DNA of 22,906 bases. It comes from Coemansia sp. RSA 487 (Eukaryota > Kickxellomycota > Kickxellomycetes > Kickxellales > Kickxellaceae). Shown one piece after another: positions 4,889-22,906 of the stretch; within the stretch, counting starts at the first letter, position 1; each line of letters begins with the position of its first letter. The stretch is taken from positions 1-22,906 of the forward strand of contig JANBRJ010000153.1 of assembly GCA_027577595.1 (NCBI GenBank). Direction: 5' to 3'. A program made the translations under genes and the position numbers. The notes beneath the pieces were generated by a model, which was given only the letters and a program-made list of their open reading frames with translations, was not told the DNA's origin and did not search any database.

Positions 4889-5008
4889 ACGATATAACAG
4901 GTATTCCCCATACTATGTGTTTTATTTGTTTTCATAGAGCCAATGCATAAAGCAACATAAAAGAAAAAAATGCAAACAAATTATTTCTCCAGCTATTTCG
5001 TCATAAAA

Positions 5009-5953
5009 ATGTCTGCTTCGAAATTTACCCTTTTGGAAATTGTCAAGGCGTGTAACAATGCTTCGGATGTTACTAGCCTTGTGTCGACTGGAGATTACTA
5101 TCGCTTTTTTGCAGACACTGGTGCTCTTGCAGGTATTGTGCATCGCCGTGACATTCCTCCGCTTGAGGAAGAATGTGGTAAACAAAAGCAGCCGGTTTTC
5201 GTGTTCGACCATGCTGAGAAGACGCTTTGCTTCAACACAGCATACGAGACGGAGCAACAGCGCTCTGCAGCACTGGCGTCTGTGATAGACGAACTACGTG
5301 CAAGCAACGCATGGCCAACGCTGCGTAAATGGCGCAACGAGCTGTATCCGATTTGCAGCGGCAAGAAACAGAGTCCTCCAGTGATGGTCGAGCGTGCTGC
5401 ATCGTTCAATTTTGGCATACGCACGTTTGGTGTGCATATCAATGGCATTGTCAGACCAGCAAAGGAAGGAGATCCGGTGCGTATGTGGATTGCAAAGCGA
5501 GCACAAACCAAGCAGACATGGGCTGGGTACTTGGACAATATGGCGGCTGGCGGAATCGGCAATGGAGACGGCATATTTGCATCTGTAGTGAAGGAGTGTG
5601 CTGAAGAGGCAGACATTTCAGCCGACATTGCTGCCACTGCCAAGGGCGCCGGCACTGTTCAGTATATGATGCTTTCGGAGCTTGGAGTTCAGCCAGACAC
5701 CATCTATGTTTTTGATCTTGAGCTACCTGCTGATTTTGTGCCGCGCCCTAATGACGGTGAAGTCGAGGATTTCTACCTGTGGACAATGGACGAGGTGCTT
5801 GCAAAGATCCGCGCTGGTCTGTTTAAGCCGAACTGCGCCGTGTGCGCTATCGACTTTATGATCCGCCAAGGAATCCTGACTGCCGAGAACGAGCCCGATT
5901 ACTTGGAGATTATCGACAATATTCACGTCTACTTGCCATTCCCTGGCGTCTAG
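5009..5953 (+). CDS. Nudix hydrolase, DUF4743/Tnr3 N-terminal type (thiamine-related)
   Basis: The 314-residue product has a DUF4743-like N-terminal part (FTLLEIVKACNNA onward) and a C-terminal Nudix domain. The Nudix box is AGGIGNGDG-IFASVV-KECAEEADI, that is G-x5-D-x7-KExxEExxI. Known members of this type, such as the N-terminal half of fission yeast Tnr3, are fused to thiamine pyrophosphokinase and act on damaged thiamine diphosphate derivatives. Here the kinase half is absent and the gene stops after the Nudix part, as in stand-alone homologues. The start at 5009 (AAAATGTCT) is preferred because the alternative ATG at 4970 adds only UTR-like codons. It converges on the kinase gene with 53 bp between stop codons. 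Confidence 0.85.
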   Translation: MSASKFTLLEIVKACNNASDVTSLVSTGDYYRFFADTGALAGIVHRRDIPPLEEECGKQKQPVFVFDHAEKTLCFNTAYETEQQRSAALASVIDELRASNAWPTLRKWRNELYPICSGKKQSPPVMVERAASFNFGIRTFGVHINGIVRPAKEGDPVRMWIAKRAQTKQTWAGYLDNMAAGGIGNGDGIFASVVKECAEEADISADIAATAKGAGTVQYMMLSELGVQPDTIYVFDLELPADFVPRPNDGEVEDFYLWTMDEVLAKIRAGLFKPNCAVCAIDFMIRQGILTAENEPDYLEIIDNIHVYLPFPGV

Positions 5954-6006: not shown

Positions 6007-7485
6007 CTAGATATTTGGAATCTGTGGCAATGGCTGATGAAGATAATGCTGGCTGGCCTCGACCATCATGGCTTTGGTCATTGGGATACCGTCGATGCTG
6101 TGCTGACGCTTCCTTAGGCTCTTCCGGCGCTCCTTTGCGCTGAGCAACCCGCCGGTGGCAGTGCGGTCAGACTCGCCGGACCGCTTACGGCTGTCGTGGG
6201 CCATTTTATTGCAGTAGCGGTGCGCAAGAGACCGCTGCTCTGGAAACAGCTGATTCCACGTCAAAATATCGATTGGAACACAGCGCGGCGGCTCGAGCGT
6301 GCCGCCCATGTACCCTTCGTCGTTCGAGCCAAACGGGCGGTTGTCGAGGGTCAGGCACTTTGCACGGTCGTCGGATATGGACCCGTTCTCCTCAAGGAAC
6401 CGCCGGAAGTGCTCGTACTCGATATAGTCAAAGGCAGCGAAATGGCGCGAGAGGCCGTGATACTCCGGTGTGTCGTGCTCCGGAGGGGTGCGGTTTTTGC
6501 GCATGGCGCTGCGCTTGCGTGGATCCAGGGGCTCAGGCTCAAGAAGCATTTCCTCGAGATCGTGCGAGATGTCAAAGTTGGACTGGTCTGTGCTGGGCGC
6601 AAAAGGCGGGTCGAGCTGCTTGGCTTCGAGACGGTCCCAGTTGATGGCTGAGAAGAAGGGATGCGCCTTGATCCCCTCAAAGCCAATGCGCTGGGCTGGG
6701 TCCTTTGTCAGAAGCGCGCGCATGGCGGATATGCAGTCATAGCTGACCTGGACATCAGCAATGATCGGGAACTGGATCTCCTCGTACATTAGGGCGCGCT
6801 TGAGCTCGTCACCGTTCTTGCGGTGGCGGAAGGGGCGCTTGCCGTAGACGCACTCGTACATGACGACGCCCAGCGACCACCAGTCGACCGAGTACGTGTA
6901 TCCTACGCCGCTGACGACCTCTGGCGCCATGTAGTTTGCGGTGCCCGCCACTGCGTAGTGCAGCGAGTTGTTGCCACGCACGCGCGTAGCAATGTTAAAG
7001 TCAGTCAGCGCTACGTGGCCGTGGTGGTCCATCAGAATGTTGTCTGGCTTTATGTCGCGGTGGACTATGGCATGCGTGGTGTGCAAGTAGTTTATGGCGC
7101 ACGCCAGCTCAGCGACCCAGAAGCGGATGACGCCCTCCACGAAGCGCCGCCGCATCATATGGAAGCGCAGGTCGCCGCCTATCATCAGGTCCATAACCAT
7201 GTACAGCGTGTATTCGTCCTGGAACGAGAAGCGCAGGTTGACGACGAATGGATGGTCTATTTCCTCGAGCATGTCGCGCTCCCGTACAGTGTTATTTTGC
7301 GCCTTCATGCTGATGCACGTTGCCTTGTTGATGTACTTGAGTGCGTATGTTTTGCCGGTCCCCCGGTGCTCGACGATACGCACCTTGCCAAACGAGCCGC
7401 GCCCAATGACCCGCAGCAGACGGAACTTGTGCAGCCCCAAGCCCAGCCCGGTGCCGTTCTGTTGCTTTGCAAGAGAGTTGCCCAT
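6007..7485 (-). CDS. STK32/YANK-type AGC serine/threonine protein kinase
   Basis: The 492-residue protein has the kinase domain at its N-terminus: glycine loop IGRGSFGKV (about 27-35), ATP lysine in YALKY (K50), αC glutamate in RERDML, HRDIKPDN (catalytic Asp144), and TDFNIA (Asp162) with Asn where most kinases have Gly. DFN and GTANYMAPE fit the YANK/STK32 branch of AGC kinases. The start is set at 7485 because GCCATGGGC is a strong context and gives MGNSLAKQ, a likely N-myristoylation signal as in STK32A; the ATG four codons earlier would mask it. The C-terminal third is diverged and basic, with AGC-type sites such as RRKSLRKRQHS. It probably sits at membranes; its substrates are unknown. 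Confidence 0.9.
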   Translation of the reverse strand: MGNSLAKQQNGTGLGLGLHKFRLLRVIGRGSFGKVRIVEHRGTGKTYALKYINKATCISMKAQNNTVRERDMLEEIDHPFVVNLRFSFQDEYTLYMVMDLMIGGDLRFHMMRRRFVEGVIRFWVAELACAINYLHTTHAIVHRDIKPDNILMDHHGHVALTDFNIATRVRGNNSLHYAVAGTANYMAPEVVSGVGYTYSVDWWSLGVVMYECVYGKRPFRHRKNGDELKRALMYEEIQFPIIADVQVSYDCISAMRALLTKDPAQRIGFEGIKAHPFFSAINWDRLEAKQLDPPFAPSTDQSNFDISHDLEEMLLEPEPLDPRKRSAMRKNRTPPEHDTPEYHGLSRHFAAFDYIEYEHFRRFLEENGSISDDRAKCLTLDNRPFGSNDEGYMGGTLEPPRCVPIDILTWNQLFPEQRSLAHRYCNKMAHDSRKRSGESDRTATGGLLSAKERRKSLRKRQHSIDGIPMTKAMMVEASQHYLHQPLPQIPNI

Positions 7486-7931
7486 GGCCACATGCAAAAA
7501 TGGTAGAAATTGAAAGGTTTTATTTTATTTTTTTACAAAGCAAAAATGACAAAAATAAGAAAGCTGTGTGGCTGCAAGAAAGGGAGAAGAAAGAACATGA
7601 AAAGCCAACATACAATTCTATTTTTGGGGGGGGAGAGGAGGAACAAAGGGCAGCTGGAAAAAAAAGACAAGAGATTTGCATACATTTAGCAGAGCTTCTT
7701 CCAGAGGCAAATCAGGGAACTGGTTGCAGTTGGAAATTAGCCAACCACACATGAAAAAGCGTTTTGCTTTTTTGTTTTGTTGCGGCTGTTTTACTGCTGC
7801 ATTGGTTCCGTATTTTTTTTGTTGGTCCCTGGCAGACTCTTTTTCTTTGGACCACACAGCCACTTTTATTTTCCCGCATTATTTACGTTAATTATATTAT
7901 ATCTTTTTATATTTTTACCTCACTATTGATT
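7486..7931. promoter_or_regulatory. Divergent promoter region between the kinase and lumazine-synthase-like gene 1
   Basis: A 446-bp region between two divergent starts. It contains a G run (7625-7632), A-rich purine tracts and T runs. No clear TATA box or conserved site is seen. Confidence 0.5.
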
Positions 7932-8792
7932 ATGAAGGCCGTAAGCAATTTGCGCACGCGCATGAAGCATCTGGGCGATGCGTCGCCCTCTTCTGGCGAA
8001 GGAGGAGCGGACGGCAACAGCGGCAGCGGCAGCGGCAGCAGCAGCAGCAGCAGCAACAACAACAACAACAACAACAGCAACAGCAACAATCGCATGGCTG
8101 AACAGGGCGACAAAAGTAGCAGTTCGCTTGGGTTCCGACGCCGCCAGCGCACGTCTTCCGGCCCCGCACATCTAACCACACCAGCAACTGGCCAGGCAGC
8201 AGCCACGCCTTCTCCGGCAGCTCGACGCCCCTGGGCAGTGCTGCCACGCAAGCTGCGTGGTCTCCACCCGGCGCCAGCCATAATCTACGTGCGCGAAAAC
8301 CCACAGGCGGTGGCGCATGTGCTGGATACGCTGTATGAAAGCTTGGTGGGCACATACAACGTGGACAGCAAAGATATTCGCGTGACTAACGTTCCAACAG
8401 CATTTGACTTGCCGAGCGCTGTACGGCGGATAGGGAGAAGCAAGCAGGTGGTCATTATTGTTGGCACGCTTTCGCGCGACAAGCCATGGCACGATGAGGG
8501 CCAATTATCCGCAGTTCGAAAGTTTCTTTTGCACTGGTCGCAAAGCACTCCGTTACCTTTAGTCGATGGGCTTGTTGTTGCCGATACGCAGCAAGAGTTG
8601 CTGCACCGCGTGTGCGAGCGCGCGTGGGATGTGCGTGCTGCTGATGACTTTGATATGGTCGATGACCAGGATGAAAACGACGAGGAGAGGGAAGACGACG
8701 AAAAGGGTGCTGGCGCCGACGGGTACCTTTTTGGAAATTATTTGGCCCATCGCGCCATCGAGATGTTTTACTTTGAACAACGCGGCTGGTGA
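7932..8792 (+). CDS. Lumazine-synthase-like protein 1 (probable pseudo-enzyme)
   Basis: The 286-residue protein has a low-complexity N-terminus (residues 30-55 nearly all Ser, Gly and Asn; basic FRRRQRTSS) followed by a lumazine synthase fold from about 114. The family landmarks are VPTAFDLPSAVRRI (154-167, versus VSGSYELPGAALKLI in the RIB4 enzyme here), VVIIVGTLSRDKPWHD (173-188), PLVDGLVVADTQQELLHR (209-226) and the last helix YLAHRAIEMF. A very acidic insert (about 238-258) breaks the fold before that helix. The phosphate-binding KGST becomes RDKP, although His187 falls in register with the catalytic His. The start is the ATG at 7932; the 56 codons before it are AT-rich leader. Catalysis looks unlikely; a partner or regulatory role is inference. 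Confidence 0.75.
   Translation: MKAVSNLRTRMKHLGDASPSSGEGGADGNSGSGSGSSSSSSNNNNNNNSNSNNRMAEQGDKSSSSLGFRRRQRTSSGPAHLTTPATGQAAATPSPAARRPWAVLPRKLRGLHPAPAIIYVRENPQAVAHVLDTLYESLVGTYNVDSKDIRVTNVPTAFDLPSAVRRIGRSKQVVIIVGTLSRDKPWHDEGQLSAVRKFLLHWSQSTPLPLVDGLVVADTQQELLHRVCERAWDVRAADDFDMVDDQDENDEEREDDEKGAGADGYLFGNYLAHRAIEMFYFEQRGW
8013..8091 (+). repeat. AGC/AAC trinucleotide tract coding poly-Ser/Asn
   Basis: Runs of GGCAGC, AGC and AAC codons encode Gly-Ser, Ser and Asn stretches in the N-terminus of the lumazine-synthase-like protein. Such tracts change length easily. Confidence 0.8.
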
Positions 8793-9329
8793 AATGACCA
8801 GTCACGTGTGTATCATTATCAACTTCCATTTATCGTTTTTTGTGTGTATTGCCTTGCATTTATATTTTTTTCGCTGGTAGGTAATATAAAAAGTCAGCGA
8901 GGAAAACCAACCACCCGTCTTTGTGACTGGGGAGGGAAATGGAAGACAAAACTATAGTCCATTATTTCATTTCATTATTTTTCATTATTTTCCTCAGCAT
9001 TAACAAAAGCTTTCTATTGTTAGCAATGTTGTATGTTTCGGAATCGGCCTTTTTTCAGGACGAGCGAAACCTACCACCATCGCCGCTTGACAGCAACAGC
9101 AGCGGATGGCCTTCGCTAATCAACATCCAATCAACAGTGTCGCTACTTTCATCGTACACGCCGCAAGCGTCATCATCGCAGCCAGAAGGCAGCTGTTCAA
9201 TGGCTGTGCTCAGTCCCATCAACGATGTTGATGAATGTTTCAAAGGTAAACAAAAAAAAAACTTTTTTTTATATTTCTCTTCTTTTTGTTTTCTTCCCTC
9301 TTTTGTGTTAATTTGTCTTTTTCGGAATC
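8793..9329. other. Region upstream of the Brl1/Brr6 gene with an unexplained open frame
   Basis: The first 230 bp are AT-rich and presumably hold the terminator of the gene ending at 8792 and the next promoter. From 9026 a coding-like frame is present and is listed separately. The segment 9246-9329 is A/T-rich and pyrimidine-rich like an intron. Confidence 0.4.
9026..9245 (+). other. Coding-like 73-codon frame ending at a splice donor (unassigned exon)
   Basis: The frame starts ATG at 9026 and encodes a Ser/Pro-rich peptide (DERNLPPSPLDSNSSGW, then SYTPQASSSQPEGSCS) using the GC-rich codons typical of genes here. It ends DECFK at AAAG|GTAAAC, followed by an intron-like stretch whose first AG is at 9357-9358. 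Splicing 9245 to 9359 puts the next exon out of frame with the Brl1/Brr6 reading and ends at a stop near 9435. It may be an upstream ORF, an alternative first exon, or an exon of a gene I could not assemble. Confidence 0.3.
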
Positions 9330-10624
9330 ATGGACTTTTCGTTTGTTACGCCGCGCAGAAAACAAAAGGCTCAGGCGCGGCCTCGTCTGGCGCCCATGGA
9401 CGTTGACTTTAACGACACAGACGACTCCTGGCTGAACCACCCCTTTAACCAGCAGCGAGCAGTAGTAGAGTCACCGCCGCCAGTGATGAGCGCTGACGAG
9501 CACCAGAACAAAAGCAAGTTTTACTCGTGGCAGACCGGAAATAAAGGACCATAAATAAAGCTTTAAATGCACTCGGCACTAACCCCTTTGCTGTTTCTAA
9601 TTATCCTTTTGTAGAGAGACTAGTGTCGACGCGTATGGAGCAGGAGCAGCAGCAGGAGCAGGAACGGCAGGCGTCACGCACACCCGTGTTCAGCGATAGA
9701 GCGCCTTTCACATTCACAATGTCGCCGCCGCCGCCGCCGCCGCCGCCCAAGATAGAAACTAAAAAAGAGGAACCGCCAGCAGCGGCTATTGAGGAAGCGG
9801 TGCGATCAAACGACCACCAACCCATATCACCCAAGGCACTGCGCAAGATCTACTCGCGGCGACAAAGACAGCAACAGCAGAAAAGCAGAAACTCTCTTGA
9901 CGATGATGACAGCCAGGAAACCAACGGCGCATGGATGACAGAAAGCGAACCCGAAGAAGACACAAGACAACAAACCACCACTCTTGGCGATAACAACAGA
10001 AGACTGAACCAGCAGCGGACCAACGAGCGGATACAAATGCATCGCGACTTGCCATACGTCATCTCGGGATACCTGCAACTGGGGTTCAACGTATTCATGG
10101 TTGGCACAGTGCTGATCATAGTGGTAAACGTGTTGCTTACGATTCGGCGGGACGTCAATTCCAAAGTGCAAGAGTATTCTTCAGAGATACTGCACGAGAT
10201 AGCCACTTGCTCCAAGCAATACGCCGACAACCAATGCGACCCGCTGAAGCGCGTACCGGCCATGGAGCCTCTGTGCGTTGCGTGGGAAAGCTGCATGCAC
10301 CGGGATCCGACCAAGGTGGGCCGCGCCAAGGTGTCGGCCGAGACGCTTGCCGAGATCGTCAATGGGTTTATCGACCCCATTTCATTTAAAACGATGCTGT
10401 TCTTTGTACTTCTTTTTGTTGGCACTTTGTTGGTTTCGAATTTTGCGTTTGGCGCCTACCGCCAGAACCGGGTGCAAAAGCAGTATGTGCGTCGGAGACA
10501 GCATTTGCACATTATGCCGCCCCAGCAGCAGTCCAAGAGATCCCAGATCCAGCAGCAGCAGCAACCCCGGCGAAGACGCGCTGCTGCTGGTACGCTGCCT
10601 CCTCCCAGCACTGTCTTGAGCTGA
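9330..10624 (+). CDS. Brl1/Brr6-family nuclear envelope protein (two exons, probable GC-AG intron)
   Basis: The predicted 397-residue protein joins exon 9330-9513 to exon 9615-10624. The C-terminal half is the Brr6/Brl1 domain: PYVISGYLQLGFN and a first membrane helix from about residue 208, four cysteines (about 260, 269, 282, 288) in CSKQYADNQC…LC…SC, the RDPTKVGRAKVSAETLAEI block, and a second helix (MLFFVLLFVGTLLVSNFAF). Known members span the nuclear envelope, pair their lumenal cysteines in disulfides and assist nuclear pore complex assembly. The N-terminus is low complexity (Gln/Glu, eight prolines). The start at 9330 has a strong context (ATCATGGAC) and gives MDFSFVTPRR. The exact N-terminal structure is less certain than the domain. 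Confidence 0.8.
9514..9614 (+). other. Probable GC-AG intron in the Brl1/Brr6 gene
   Basis: The downstream frame needs a phase-1 donor before the stop at 9552-9554. None of the GT dinucleotides here has the right phase with the TTTTGTAG acceptor (9607-9614), but GCAAGT at 9514 does. A CACTAAC branch-like site is at 9577-9583. GCAAGT is the usual donor of GC-AG introns. Other pairings, such as GTTTTA at 9518 with the AG at 9618, also keep frame but are weaker. Confidence 0.5.
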
Positions 10625-10912
10625 CCATCAAAACTTTTTTTTGCAATTGCAGGTATATTAATACCACCTGGCACGATCGATACAAGGATGAGGGGGATGT
10701 GGAGGTGGGAAAAAGGAGCATAATCAAAAGCTGTTTTTGTCAGCATGGGTCAAAAGATTACAAATGAATATTATAAAAGCTCGTTCTTTCTCTCTCTTTC
10801 TCCACCCACCTACCTACCTACCCACCTACCTTTTTATCTGGCTTGTGTATAGCTTTTATTTTCCCAACCATCCAAACAAGAGTACAAGAATCAGACTTTA
10901 AAGCTAGAAAGA
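10625..10912 (+). promoter_or_regulatory. RIB4: RIB4 promoter region
   Basis: A TATAAAA box lies at 10772-10778, about 135 bp before the RIB4 start. It is followed by a pyrimidine tract with CTCTCT and a CCTA/CCCA tetranucleotide array (about 10802-10831). Pyrimidine tracts also precede the next gene. Confidence 0.5.
10802..10831 (+). repeat. CCTA-type tetranucleotide array in the RIB4 leader
   Basis: Repeats of CACC, TACC and CACC in register, ending CCACCTACC. It lies downstream of the TATA box, so it probably falls in the 5' untranslated region or at the transcription start. Confidence 0.7.
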
Positions 10913-11542
10913 ATGGCTGGCGGAACCGATTTCGAAAAGGGCACCAAAGACCCAGTGCACAAGCTCGACGGCAGCAAGCTCAAGGTGCTTATCGTCTGTG
11001 CGCGCTGGAACTCGGAGATTGTTGACGAGCTAGTATCGGGGGCAAAGGCGTCTCTCCTTAGCTGCGGCGTCAAGGAGGCCAACATAGTTGTGCGCGATGT
11101 GTCGGGATCGTACGAGCTTCCGGGAGCGGCGCTCAAGCTTATCCGCCAGTCGCAGCAGCAATCAACCAACCTGGTGTCTGACATTGTTGAAGATATTTTG
11201 ACCAGCGCAAGCGCGACAGCCACGGCGGCGGTTACGGGTAGCAGAGCCTCCCGTAGCGAGGAAGGCGTGACAAAGTCGGGGCCGTTTGATGCGGCGATTT
11301 GCGTGGGGGTGCTTATCAAGGGCAGCACAATGCACTTTGAATACATCTCGGAGGCGGTGACCCACGGAATCATGCGTGTGGGGCTGGATACCGGCGTTCC
11401 TACGGTGTTTGGCGTGCTGACCTGCATGACTGACGAACAGGCTTTGCAGCGGGCCGGCATGGGAACCGGAAACAACAAGGGTCACAACCACGGTTCCGAC
11501 TGGGGCACGGCAGCCGTTGACATGGCGCTGCTCTCACTCTGA
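10913..11542 (+). CDS. RIB4: 6,7-dimethyl-8-ribityllumazine synthase (riboflavin biosynthesis)
   Basis: The 209-residue enzyme should condense 5-amino-6-ribitylamino-uracil with 3,4-dihydroxy-2-butanone 4-phosphate, the penultimate step to riboflavin. The family blocks are present in order: VLIVCARWN (25-33, aromatic Trp at the substrate site), VSGSYELPGAA (63-73), AAICVGVLIKGSTMHFEYI (127-145) with phosphate-binding Gly-Ser-Thr and catalytic His141, GVPTVFGVLTCMTDEQALQRAG, and NNKGHNHGSDWGTAAVDMA at the end. About 40 residues rich in Ser, Thr and Ala (79-122) are inserted before the catalytic strand, making it longer than bacterial enzymes and yeast Rib4. The ATG follows AAAGA. It lies between two diverged homologues on the same strand. 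Confidence 0.97.
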   Translation: MAGGTDFEKGTKDPVHKLDGSKLKVLIVCARWNSEIVDELVSGAKASLLSCGVKEANIVVRDVSGSYELPGAALKLIRQSQQQSTNLVSDIVEDILTSASATATAAVTGSRASRSEEGVTKSGPFDAAICVGVLIKGSTMHFEYISEAVTHGIMRVGLDTGVPTVFGVLTCMTDEQALQRAGMGTGNNKGHNHGSDWGTAAVDMALLSL

Positions 11543-11850
11543 GGGGAAAACTCAAGTCAGATACTGCTTTCCTCTTTCCTCTTTCGACACTCTTGCCTGC
11601 GACGAAGCACATGCCAGCAGCGGCAATTAATGTGCGAGGGTTCATCATCGTCATCATCATCAATATCTGCAAAAAAGAAAACCCGAAAACATTTCAATAT
11701 TTGACAAGATAAAAGGAGGCGTTTGTTTCTCTATCGGGTGTGCTCTGTCTCTTTCTCTCTTTCTTTCGTGGTTAAGTAAATATATATTTGTTATCCACCG
11801 CTATTCTCCTCCTCCTCCTCCTCTATCTTTATCTCTTAAGGCAAGGCAGG
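11543..11850 (+). promoter_or_regulatory. Spacer between RIB4 and lumazine-synthase-like gene 2
   Basis: About 308 bp. It carries CTTTCCTCTTTCC near the start, a TCATCATCGTCATCATCATC run (about 11641-11661), and a second pyrimidine tract (about 11740-11768) with a CTCCTC run just before the next start. No clear TATA box apart from TATATATT near 11781. Confidence 0.4.
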
Positions 11851-12351
11851 ATGACAAGATTGCCTATTCTACGACGAGCCTTTGAGTCGCCAAAGTGGAC
11901 AATATCTTCTCCGCGCATCGGAATCGTCTACTCTGCCGAAAACTGGGACCACATCGAGCCCCTTGTCAACGACCTGCGGTACGAGCTAATAGATCACTAC
12001 GGCATCAGCCCCATTAGCGTCAAGATCACGCAAGCCGAAAGCGTACACGAGATCCCAATGTATGTCGTGCACTCGCATCAGCGCAGCGACATTGTTTTTG
12101 CGCTGGGCGTGGTTTTCCGCGATATGCCACTGTATCAGGAGCGGCTGGTGGATCTGCTCACACGTAGACTTGGCTCCATTGGACTGCCTGGCCGGCTGCC
12201 TGTGTTTGATTGCATCCTGGTCAAGGATTCGCAGAAGCAGCTGAGCATGGATCTTGCTGTGCTTGGTGGCCACAAAGGCGGCGGCGTGGGGAAGATCTGG
12301 GCAAAGCGTGCAATGGATGCGTTGGCGATGCTGTCAAGACCTACTAGCTGA
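11851..12351 (+). CDS. Lumazine-synthase-like protein 2 (probable pseudo-enzyme)
   Basis: The 166-residue protein has the compact size of a plain lumazine synthase subunit. RIGIVYSAENWDHIEPLVNDL (22-42) matches the first strand and helix, with Trp32 kept. SVHEIPMYVV replaces the SYELPGAA segment. IVFALGVVFRDMPLYQER (81-98) matches AICVGVLIKGSTMHFEY. There the phosphate-binding KGST is RDMP and the catalytic His position is Tyr95, so the enzyme reaction is very unlikely. LPVFDCILVKDSQKQLSMD matches the VPTVFGVLT segment, and GGGVGKIWAKRAMDALAML the final helix. The ATG at 11851 is the first in frame; the codons before it are a pyrimidine tract. It may assemble with Rib4 subunits, but that is inference. 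Confidence 0.75.
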   Translation: MTRLPILRRAFESPKWTISSPRIGIVYSAENWDHIEPLVNDLRYELIDHYGISPISVKITQAESVHEIPMYVVHSHQRSDIVFALGVVFRDMPLYQERLVDLLTRRLGSIGLPGRLPVFDCILVKDSQKQLSMDLAVLGGHKGGGVGKIWAKRAMDALAMLSRPTS

Positions 12352-12606: not shown

Positions 12607-13512
12607 ATGTGCCGCTTTCTTTTGTACAAAAGCAATTCACCCATTCTGCTTGCCGACCTGCTCACTCGGCCCGCACACTCGATCATCATGCAGTCGTTCA
12701 ACTGCAAGCTGCGCATCGACCTAAGGCGGCCGATGAACGGCGACGGGTTCGGCATCGGATGGTACGACGAGCCAGGCACGCCAGGGTGCATCTTCACATC
12801 GACGCTGCCAGCATGGGGCAACCTCAATTTGCAGCGTCTTGCCGAGAAGATCAAAAGCGCCCTAGTGTTTGCGCACGTGCGTGCCACTACGGGCGACACA
12901 GCGACATCCGAATCCAACTGCCATCCGTGGCAGTTTGGGAACCTCATGTGGATGCACAACGGCAACATTGGCGGCTTTGACAAGATCAAGCGGCGGCTGC
13001 AGAATGCGCTCCGCGAGGACATATATTTGGCGGTGCAAGGGACCACCGACTCGGAGCATGCGTTTGCGCTGTTCCTCAACATGCTGGATGACCCCACCAA
13101 GCCGGTGTTTTCGTTCCAGGAGCTGCGCACCGCCATGCTGCGCACCATCGAGCAGCTCAACGAATGGCTCGAGGGCGAGGACGAGATCTCGCTGATGAAT
13201 TTTGCAGTCACCGACGGACAGTCTGTGGTTTGCACGCGGTACACCACAAGCTCTGAATTGGAGGCTGCATCGCTGTTCTACTCGTCGGGATCCGAGTTCC
13301 GGGCAGACGATGGCCAGTACCGGATGATCAAGGCCAACAAGCGCGAGGACGTTGTTGTTGTCGCCTCAGAGCCGCTGACATACGAGCGCTCCGACTGGCT
13401 GGTCATCCCCACCAACACGCTGCTTGTCATCACGCCCAAGCAAAACGTCCATTTGCATCCGATCAAAGACAAGTACTGGAACCCAAGCAGAAGCCTGGCC
13501 ACTTCCAGCTAA
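12607..13512 (+). CDS. DUG3: Dug3-type class II glutamine amidotransferase (glutathione degradation)
   Basis: The 301-residue protein begins MCRFLLYKS, placing Cys2 as the N-terminal nucleophile after Met removal. Further class II amidotransferase landmarks are NGDGFGIGWYDE (44-55), FAHVRATTGDT (88-98), NCHPWQFGNLMWMHNGNIGGF (104-124, Asn-Gly oxyanion region) and TTDSEHAFALF. In yeast, Dug3 works with Dug2 to cleave glutathione in the cytosol as an alternative to gamma-glutamyl transpeptidase. The start at 12607 is fixed by the required Cys2, not the frame opening at 12553. The C-terminal part (CTRYTTSSELEAASLFYSSG) is also family-like. It converges on the acetyltransferase gene with 99 bp between stops. 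Confidence 0.93.
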   Translation: MCRFLLYKSNSPILLADLLTRPAHSIIMQSFNCKLRIDLRRPMNGDGFGIGWYDEPGTPGCIFTSTLPAWGNLNLQRLAEKIKSALVFAHVRATTGDTATSESNCHPWQFGNLMWMHNGNIGGFDKIKRRLQNALREDIYLAVQGTTDSEHAFALFLNMLDDPTKPVFSFQELRTAMLRTIEQLNEWLEGEDEISLMNFAVTDGQSVVCTRYTTSSELEAASLFYSSGSEFRADDGQYRMIKANKREDVVVVASEPLTYERSDWLVIPTNTLLVITPKQNVHLHPIKDKYWNPSRSLATSS

Positions 13513-17685: not shown

Positions 17686-17776
17686 ATAACCTTCTCCCCC
17701 CCCCTTTTTTTTGAAGGTACAAGTGGGGTGGTGATTGGTGGGAAGTGGAAACACGCTTCCTTTTCTTCTTTTAATT

Positions 17777-18607
17777 ATGTCCACGATTATTAAAGCTATT
17801 AAACGAAACACAAGAGTGATATCCTTTTCCACTTGTCGTTCAATGATGGAATCAACAGAGATCCAGCTCAGCCCAGATGGCTCCAGGACGGTACGCCTCG
17901 ACTGCCCGGCACATGTTGCATCCACGGTATCATTGTCAGAGATCCAGCGCTTTCCGCCGTTCAAGCACTGGCTCTCTGCCCTACAGCAGCAAAGCAACAG
18001 CGAGGTTGTCGTCAAGAGCATCACGATCCAAAGCGTCGACCGATTCAAATCGGGCAAAATAGGGTTTCTCAAGCTTGCTGCCCTTGCACATCACTTGCCT
18101 GACAACACAGCAGTCCCTGGAATCGTGTTTCTCCGTGGCGGCGCCGTTGCCATCCTCCTCATTCTACGGAGTGAGGAAAAAGAGTATGCGATACTGACTG
18201 AGCAACCTCGGCTGGCAGTACCCGACTTCCGTATGCTTGAACTCCCCGCCGGCATGCTAGATGATGATGGTGCCTTTGCAGGCACTGCTGCCCGTGAAAT
18301 CCTTGAGGAGACGGGGCTCACCATCGCACCACACGAGCTAATCGATCTCACCACACATGCCAGTAAGGGTCTGTATCCAAGCTCTGGTGCCTGCGACGAG
18401 TTTATCCGCCTTTTCGCTTGTCTAAAGCATGTGACAAGCAAAGAGCTAGATGATATAAAGGGCCGACTAAGTGGACTGCGCGAAGACGGTGAGTTCATTA
18501 CTGTGCGTCTGGTCCCTCTTGATCAGCTCTGGCAGTCCACAATGGATATGAAAGCAACGTCAGCACTTTATCTCTGGAACCAGCATAACCAGCAACAAAG
18601 TAAATAG
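17777..18607 (+). CDS. Nudix hydrolase, ADP-sugar diphosphatase (NUDX14-like)
   Basis: The 276-residue protein has a Nudix box at about 159-181, LPAGMLDDDGAFAGTAAREILEETGL. It matches the LPAGMLDDD…FVGTAVREVEEE pattern of plant NUDX14-type ADP-sugar diphosphatases, including replacement of the first Nudix Glu by Gly. Relatives split ADP-ribose or ADP-glucose into AMP and a sugar phosphate. The catalytic REILEE glutamates (174, 177, 178) are kept. The first residues (IIKAIKRNTRVISFSTCRS) are basic and free of acids, compatible with a mitochondrial presequence, unless translation begins at Met23. The ATG at 17777 is the first in frame; upstream codons lack an ATG. Its stop lies 22 bp from that of the convergent gene. 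Confidence 0.85.
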   Translation: MSTIIKAIKRNTRVISFSTCRSMMESTEIQLSPDGSRTVRLDCPAHVASTVSLSEIQRFPPFKHWLSALQQQSNSEVVVKSITIQSVDRFKSGKIGFLKLAALAHHLPDNTAVPGIVFLRGGAVAILLILRSEEKEYAILTEQPRLAVPDFRMLELPAGMLDDDGAFAGTAAREILEETGLTIAPHELIDLTTHASKGLYPSSGACDEFIRLFACLKHVTSKELDDIKGRLSGLREDGEFITVRLVPLDQLWQSTMDMKATSALYLWNQHNQQQSK

Positions 18608-22168: not shown

Positions 22169-22906
22169 TTAAATCAAAAATAACCCGGTCGAGTTTTTGC
22201 TACGCACTATTACACTTACAGCTATGCCAAATGCCATTACTGGAGAAACTGGGAACCTGAAATCAAGCGTGAAAGCATCACGGTCTGTTTTGCCAAACTG
22301 CACAGCCACATAGTGGTCGCAGTCCAAGCATATCAGCTGGAAATTCTTTGATGACGCCATTGTTACGCGTCCGCCAAAATCAAGCATGTACGCCATCCTG
22401 TTAACGCTCCATTTGGGTGTCTTGTTCTCCAGGACCACAATTGATCCGGTCGCATCCGTCATTGCCTTTTCGGCTTGGTCCCTATTGTTGGCCACACATG
22501 TACGGTACTTGGAAACAAGCGACACTTCACAAGCGGCAGAGCTGTCGGCTGCGTCATCGTTGACGATGGCCCGAATAACCACCGCCATCTTGCGCGGTCC
22601 CCGCTGGTGCCCAAACACGCTGTTTCTGGGTTTGTATACGACCGCACAGATCTCCCTCCATGTGTCTGCTGCTTCTTGTTTACTTTCCTTTTCGAGGATA
22701 GAAAACTCTGTGCCTGTTGCGTTGGAGACTACTCGCCCTACCACAGCGGATGAACCATGTACACACGCAATGTCGTAGCTGTACCGACAAAGCATGGACG
22801 CTCGCGGAGTCTTTGTTGCGCGTAACACGTGCTGCTGCTGCTGCTGTTGCTGCCGCCGCCCTGCGGTTCCATTTCCGCTGTTGCCTGTGGCAGCACGCAG
22901 AAGTGT
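22169..22906 (-). CDS. Tubby C-terminal domain protein (partial, 5' end beyond the window)
   Basis: The frame is open from the right edge, so the start is missing. It runs through a Gln tract (CAG repeat, 22829-22852) into a Tubby domain of about 210 residues. Landmarks are RYSYDIA, VVGRVVSNATGTEFSIL (like NLLGTKFTVYD), WREICAVVY, GPRKMAVVI, VLENKTPKWS (family LQNKTPxW), LDFGGRVTMASSKNFQL (family NFHGRVTxASVKNFQ) and VAVQFGKTDRDAFTLDFRFP. Known Tubby domains bind phosphoinositides and plasma membrane. The usual C-terminal FDSKLACE is replaced by VIVRSKNSTGLFLI, so the extreme C-terminus differs. The TAA is joined to an AATAAA signal (TTTAATAAAG). Confidence 0.9.
   Translation of the reverse strand, partial: TLLRAATGNSGNGTAGRRQQQQQQQHVLRATKTPRASMLCRYSYDIACVHGSSAVVGRVVSNATGTEFSILEKESKQEAADTWREICAVVYKPRNSVFGHQRGPRKMAVVIRAIVNDDAADSSAACEVSLVSKYRTCVANNRDQAEKAMTDATGSIVVLENKTPKWSVNRMAYMLDFGGRVTMASSKNFQLICLDCDHYVAVQFGKTDRDAFTLDFRFPVSPVMAFGIAVSVIVRSKNSTGLFLI
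22829..22852 (-). repeat. CAG/CAA tract coding poly-Gln
   Basis: Seven consecutive Gln codons (CAG with one CAA) before CAC GTG, in the low-complexity region ahead of the Tubby domain. Confidence 0.8.

Follow-up and report, generated by a model that had tools for sequence, protein, structure and literature searches.

What are two diverged lumazine synthase (LS)-like genes doing beside the gene for LS itself? The question is raised by a contig of Coemansia sp. RSA 487 (JANBRJ010000153.1, assembly GCA_027577595.1), on which RIB4 (10913..11542; protein P0006, 209 amino acids), a canonical fungal LS gene, is flanked on the same, plus strand by gene A (7932..8792; P0001, 286 amino acids) and gene B (11851..12351; P0002, 166 amino acids). 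All three are intact single-exon genes. The window analyzed here is that entire contig of 22,906 bases, from an assembly of 17.8 Mb. A first-pass annotation of this DNA had described a cluster of three plus-strand genes with the LS pattern, the outer two being diverged, perhaps non-catalytic, and suggested to derive from one earlier duplicate. The answer favored here, with a little more than even confidence, is that A and B go back to a RIB4 duplicate that was itself copied again, that they are intact non-catalytic LS-fold proteins, and that a role apart from Rib4 is somewhat likelier for them than one as subunits of the Rib4 pentamer.

The three proteins all match the LS family profile PF00885 (the 6,7-dimethyl-8-ribityllumazine synthase family) above its curated cut-off of 26.7 bits (A, 41.3; RIB4, 150.8; B, 33.7), which bears out both the three-gene pattern and the family assignment of the outer genes. 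RIB4 also meets the cut-off of the LS equivalog profile TIGR00114 (130.6 bits against 84.6); A (31.3 bits) and B (17.1 bits) both fall under it. Single-chain structure models, built on alignments A1 (25 rows) and A2 (37 rows, partial rows included), have an LS-fold core in both A and B, and in structure comparison S. pombe LS chains came top for each, within 1 Z of other LS chains. The archaeal pentameric riboflavin synthase (2b98/2b99) was a weaker structural match to A and B than LS was (18-20), in a comparison of structures and not of residues. A and B are LS-fold proteins. They share fold and domain extent with the fungal Rib4 proteins S. pombe 1kyv, M. grisea 1c41 and S. cerevisiae 1ejb, a group of which the window RIB4 is a member.

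A family search of the whole assembly gave PF00885 matches in gene A, RIB4 and gene B only (such counts are lower bounds), and because these are the sole matches found, their clustering is not due to chance. The described cluster stands in that the three LS-fold genes lie together; they are not strictly adjacent, since a BRR6/BRL1-type nuclear-envelope gene, recognized by a PF10104 profile match, sits between gene A and RIB4. Its C-terminal open reading frame (ORF) lies at 9545..10624 on the plus strand (170.2 bits), with upstream exons at about 9027-9630, as judged by eye.

The active sites of LS lie between adjacent subunits, where a Phe or Trp gate stacks on the substrate ring and the phosphate is held by a Thr and an Arg; Arg126 and Thr85 are described as strictly conserved in LS (PMC2935281, section 3.3). 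The corresponding residues were counted in 35 of the 38 A proteins and 31 of the 32 B proteins and compared with 6 fungal LS rows. Four partial proteins (P0064, P0065, P0066 and P0074) were excluded, three others named partial (P0011, P0042 and P0059) stayed in, and the A and B rows come from related strains and so do not count as independent. For S. pombe the row is a chain with the mutations W63Y and L119F; in the wild type, RIB4 position 166 corresponds to Leu instead of Phe and position 67 to Trp. Coordinates of residues and segments of A, RIB4 and B given below are on the plus strand.

The substrate-gate Trp (Trp32 in RIB4, Trp27 in S. pombe) is replaced by Glu in every row of both families (35/35 and 31/31), namely by Glu122 in A (8295..8297) and Glu30 in B (11938..11940). 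The strand-4 Phe, Phe166 in RIB4, is Asp in 35/35 A and 31/31 B rows (Asp212 in A, 8565..8567; Asp120 in B, 12208..12210). In the last helix the G-x-A of LS has become A-x-R in all A and B rows, with an Arg at the position of RIB4 Ala200 in 35/35 and 31/31 (Arg274 in A, 8751..8753; Arg153 in B, 12307..12309). The phosphate-binding Thr, present in RIB4, occurs in none of the 35 A rows and none of the 31 B rows. The phosphate-binding Arg occurs in 31 of the 35 A rows and in none of the 31 B rows, where His takes its place in 9 and Lys in 1.

The phosphate and His loop reads KGSTMHFE in RIB4 (11318..11341), as aligned to fungal LS of known structure, and its former counterparts read RDKPWHDE in A (residues 182-189; 8475..8498) and RDMPLYQE in B (residues 90-97; 12118..12141). 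The first-pass annotation had KGST and the catalytic His surviving in the middle gene alone. RIB4 does have KGST and His141, but window A also keeps a His that aligns with His141, so that for the window the statement about His is wrong; at the level of the families it mostly holds, with His in just 4 of 35 A rows (window A included) and 3 of 31 B rows, and Phe or Tyr otherwise. The R-D-x-P that the annotation saw in both outer proteins is likewise present in the window, yet it is a weak mark: Arg, Asp and Pro are found in 33, 33 and 22 of the 35 A rows and in 16, 6 and 28 of the 31 B rows, respectively. Better shared marks are the gate Glu, the strand-4 Asp and the last-helix A-x-R, which are fixed in both families.

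Replacement of Arg126 by an uncharged residue inactivates LS, and its replacement by His or Lys leaves 62% or 9% of the activity (PMC2935281). In Brucella RibH2 the gate mutant W22A could not take the place of an active LS in vivo; it is described as inactive and its structure as unaltered, the latter cited as unpublished (PMC2828483). Because many single changes in LS reportedly matter little, the argument for lost activity rests on the joint loss of residues and not on the His. Judged in this way from their sequences, A and B have most likely lost LS activity: compared with fungal Rib4 they are without the gate aromatic and the phosphate Thr, residues reportedly needed for that activity, and carry Glu, Asp and Arg in the old pocket of a retained LS-fold core. 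This agrees with the earlier suggestion that the outer proteins could be non-catalytic.

The origin of the two genes was addressed with a maximum-likelihood (ML) tree of 47 rows and 152 columns under LG+C20+F+G4 with posterior mean site frequencies (PMSF). It sampled 16 of the 35 A rows, 15 of the 31 B rows and 10 of the 13 bacterial rows; L010 and L012 duplicate the genes of L011 and L009 and were dropped, as was L018, which is short. A and B were grouped at a support of 100/99, and fungal LS, RIB4 included, stood beside them in no resolved order. Forcing A with RIB4 costs 24.1 log units (p 0.031 in the approximately unbiased, AU, test) and forcing B with RIB4 costs 23.0 (AU p 0.042); A, B and RIB4 as a single clade were not rejected (AU p 0.441). 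At least 90% fixation in both families was found for 23 columns. The same non-LS residue is fixed in 7 of these; the rest comprise 5 in which A, B and LS all have different residues, 4 in which only A retains the commonest LS residue, 4 in which only B does and 3 in which all agree. A common origin of A and B, as the first-pass annotation suggested, is therefore supported, though not settled.

Relatives were sought by searches that scored just the 7999 candidates sharing most words with the query, so that sensitivity was limited to shared words. These listed 24 relatives for B and 36 for A, among which 6 bear names marked partial, and a profile combining A and B gave 63 proteins. The named relatives listed all belong to the Kickxellaceae (Coemansia, Kickxella, Linderina, Dipsacomyces and Martensiomyces), and P0039 and P0073 are nameless. 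Among the matches listed from the word-sharing candidates none carried a name from outside the Kickxellaceae, which does not imply absence elsewhere; the A/B family appears, as far as searched, to be specific to that family of fungi. The searches with A and B returned no true LS, not even the RIB4 of other Kickxellaceae, and adjacency to RIB4 in other strains was hence not seen. Over residues 100-286, window A matches a listed protein of Coemansia sp. RSA 986 at 100% identity. The best listed relative of B is just 80% identical, and the B of RSA 986 seems to be missing from the annotation or the database. Viral carriers of A or B were also considered and rejected, two scans of viral contigs having given no relative of either.

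Conservation of this kind bears on the possibility that the two outer genes have no function and are duplicates in decay, whether pseudogenes or artifacts of annotation. The divergent sequences, and the low-complexity runs in the A N-terminus, might be expected of decay, but the frames are intact, the 24 relatives of B and 36 of A are listed as proteins, and 22 columns are invariant across 25 B rows and 28 across 37 A rows. The pseudogene reading is thereby largely refuted, and we regard it as highly improbable. In place of the unrelated fold, or the absence from close relatives, that could have spoken against the first-pass annotation, the analysis found the LS fold and conservation of both genes in Kickxellaceae relatives.

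Linkage of A and B was read from locus tags in 18 strains in which both occur under a shared tag prefix. The tags differ by 3 in 9 strains and by 4 in 2 (11/18 strains), and the difference in the window is likewise 3, the order being A, BRR6, RIB4, B. For Kickxella, A and B are given the same listed contig size and were counted as linked, bringing the total to 12/18; the listed size is that of the longest contig of a cluster and is a rough guide to linkage. By the tags, and not by the identity of the genes between, the arrangement of the window seems to be kept in Coemansia and Linderina and probably in Kickxella.

Several points weigh against the favored account, the first of them concerning catalysis. 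B. subtilis LS reportedly tolerates substitution of many of its active-site residues with little effect (PMC2935281), and because most such mutations are weak and His in place of Arg keeps 62% of the activity, one lost residue proves nothing; moreover, Arg still stands at the phosphate position in 31/35 A rows. Together with the His at the catalytic position in 4/35 A rows, that of the window included, this tolerance of single changes would fit a reading in which A, B or both have an altered active site but remain weakly active LS or act as related enzymes of the flavin pathway. Such activity is nevertheless quite doubtful, as the gate Glu and strand-4 Asp are present, and the phosphate Thr absent, in every row, and both proteins score far under the equivalog cut-off.

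Further such points concern origin and linkage. The stems of the A/B region of the tree are very long (2.4, 1.66 and 1.76 changes per column), the clades of the AU tests were named after the tree had been seen and their p values are just under 0.05, and 2 of the 7 shared non-LS columns (RIB4 positions 16 and 23) belong to the N-terminal part, where the alignment is poor. The semblance of a common origin could be produced by long-branch attraction or by parallel changes within one pocket. The alternative to which these points lend themselves, as does R-D-x-P not being fixed in B, is that A and B arose by two separate RIB4 duplications and converged on the same pocket residues; it is unlikely in view of the 100/99 support under a site-mixture model and of identical unusual changes fixed in both families. 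As to linkage, the remaining 6 of the 18 strains have A and B listed on different contigs, at least one of the two genes having a longest contig of no more than 2.1 kb, too short for both, and linkage by tags says nothing of the identity of the intervening genes in other strains.

If A and B have lost LS activity, they might still serve the active enzyme. Fungal LS are reported as pentamers (PMC10366380), and the first-pass annotation had proposed, with new roles as the alternative, that the outer proteins could be non-catalytic subunits that tune assembly; one or both would then be dead subunits in a mixed LS pentamer with Rib4, setting its assembly or activity. The shared fold, the closeness of the paralogs to RIB4 in the window, that between A and B in many strains, and the retention of both genes are all consistent with such an arrangement, and there are precedents for regulation of an active enzyme by a dead paralog, such as the prozyme of trypanosome S-adenosylmethionine decarboxylase (AdoMetDC; PMC5201418). 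However, as LS sites lie between subunits (PMC2935281), each paralog in a ring would spoil sites. The identity of the paralogs to the window RIB4 is low (A, 24.2%; B, 18.4%), and RIB4 itself is like any fungal LS, being 55.8% identical to the S. pombe LS chain over 147 columns and having an end branch of 0.37 in the tree. It is ordinary for a fungal LS and has no visible sign of co-adaptation. Mixed pentamers are thus the main rival reading of A and B but a less probable one; the unchanged look of RIB4, and the pocket changes that A and B have in common, tip the balance somewhat towards a role apart from Rib4. The best relative of the window RIB4 in the PDB is the M. grisea LS 1c41, which its long loop, at about residues 80-125, also resembles.

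A history consistent with a role apart from Rib4 can be proposed. RIB4 would have been copied locally, and an early copy would have lost the LS active site and acquired Glu, Asp and Arg in what had been the pocket between subunits. Duplicated again, the rebuilt copy would have given A and B, both retained beside RIB4. The two proteins may still form LS-like rings, alone or with each other, in which the charged pocket would lock the interfaces or hold a new ligand. By analogy with the geometry of LS, the gate Glu of one subunit would face the strand-4 Asp of its neighbor and perhaps the last-helix Arg.

Of the two, A would be the likelier control or docking subunit. Its N-terminal tail (residues 1-101; 7932..8234) is predicted to be disordered, with a predicted local distance difference test (pLDDT) score mostly below 50, and begins with an MKAV-type start in 29 of 35 rows. 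R8, R10, R69, R70, R71, A72 and T74 are each conserved at 90% or more in alignment A2 and include an RRRAxT motif, which we take to be basophilic-kinase-like. A regular-expression count of that motif was set aside, since inspection by eye showed it to pick up other basic stretches as well, such as in P0041, a protein without the motif. Before the last helix A carries an acidic, mostly disordered insert of low pLDDT (residues 236-263; 8637..8720), which across the A family is 5-105 amino acids long and net acidic in 34/35 rows. A conserved basic tail and an acidic insert fit a regulated or docking subunit.

A more specific proposal is that A and B form a two-component ring whose old active sites have become an acidic and Arg-bearing pocket for a new ligand or chemistry, switched via the tail of A. 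We consider this improbable. Its boldest form is that the rebuilt ring supplies or channels the second substrate of RIB4, which is made by 3,4-dihydroxy-2-butanone 4-phosphate synthase (DHBP synthase, RIB3). The assembly contains genes for GTP cyclohydrolase II-type (RIB1), RibD_C (RIB7), riboflavin synthase (RIB5) and riboflavin kinase proteins, and RIB3 was not found in it by PF00926, TIGR00506 or an ENEGD-type motif. The profiles gave RIB3 matches in 14 of 14 control genomes, above the cut-off in 14 for PF00926 and in 12 for TIGR00506; the motif pattern was without a positive control. A gap in the assembly is the simplest reason for the missing RIB3 and is far likelier than substrate supply by the ring. 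GTP cyclohydrolase II-type matches were found at two loci, G000:C63:3698-4042 and G000:C16:91547-91954, one strong (165.7 bits) and one weaker (64.3 bits).

Other neighbors in the window are a protein kinase ORF at 6007-7521 on the minus strand, a class-II glutamine amidotransferase (GATase_4) at 12607-13512 on the plus strand, and NUDIX-domain ORFs at 4961-5950 (with DUF4743) and 17735-18604. A Tubby-domain ORF at 22172-22906 on the minus strand runs off the end of the contig.

More than one LS-fold gene in a genome, thought to derive from duplication, is also seen in the Rhizobiales, where PMC2828483 describes RibH1 and RibH2 as two LS isoenzymes, one encoded in the rib operon and the other apart from it. 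Both of those proteins are active LS in vivo there, unlike what is expected of A and B. A dead paralog kept with an active enzyme is a feature of the AdoMetDC prozyme too, though the enzyme is a different one and partner binding, demonstrated there (PMC5201418), is only a possibility for A and B. The first-pass annotation knew of no fungal system with LS pseudo-enzymes encoded beside RIB4, and likewise no description of LS-fold paralogs beside a fungal RIB4 was found in the open-access literature, as judged by full-text matching and by titles and the opening lines of abstracts (subscription papers and preprints were outside the scope).

A and B appear to have the traits of dead paralogs, with catalytic residues lost, the fold intact and the sequence conserved, and the pair is real and conserved, and most likely a case of dead paralogs beside their enzyme. 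Because LS-type UniRef names stand on listed relatives (7 of 24 for B and 9 of 36 for A), annotation of the A/B family as part of the flavin pathway may mislead. LS is a target for antimicrobials and serves as a model of protein shells that assemble by themselves, and A and B would offer a natural case in which an enzyme with its site between subunits has turned into a non-enzyme while retaining the fold.

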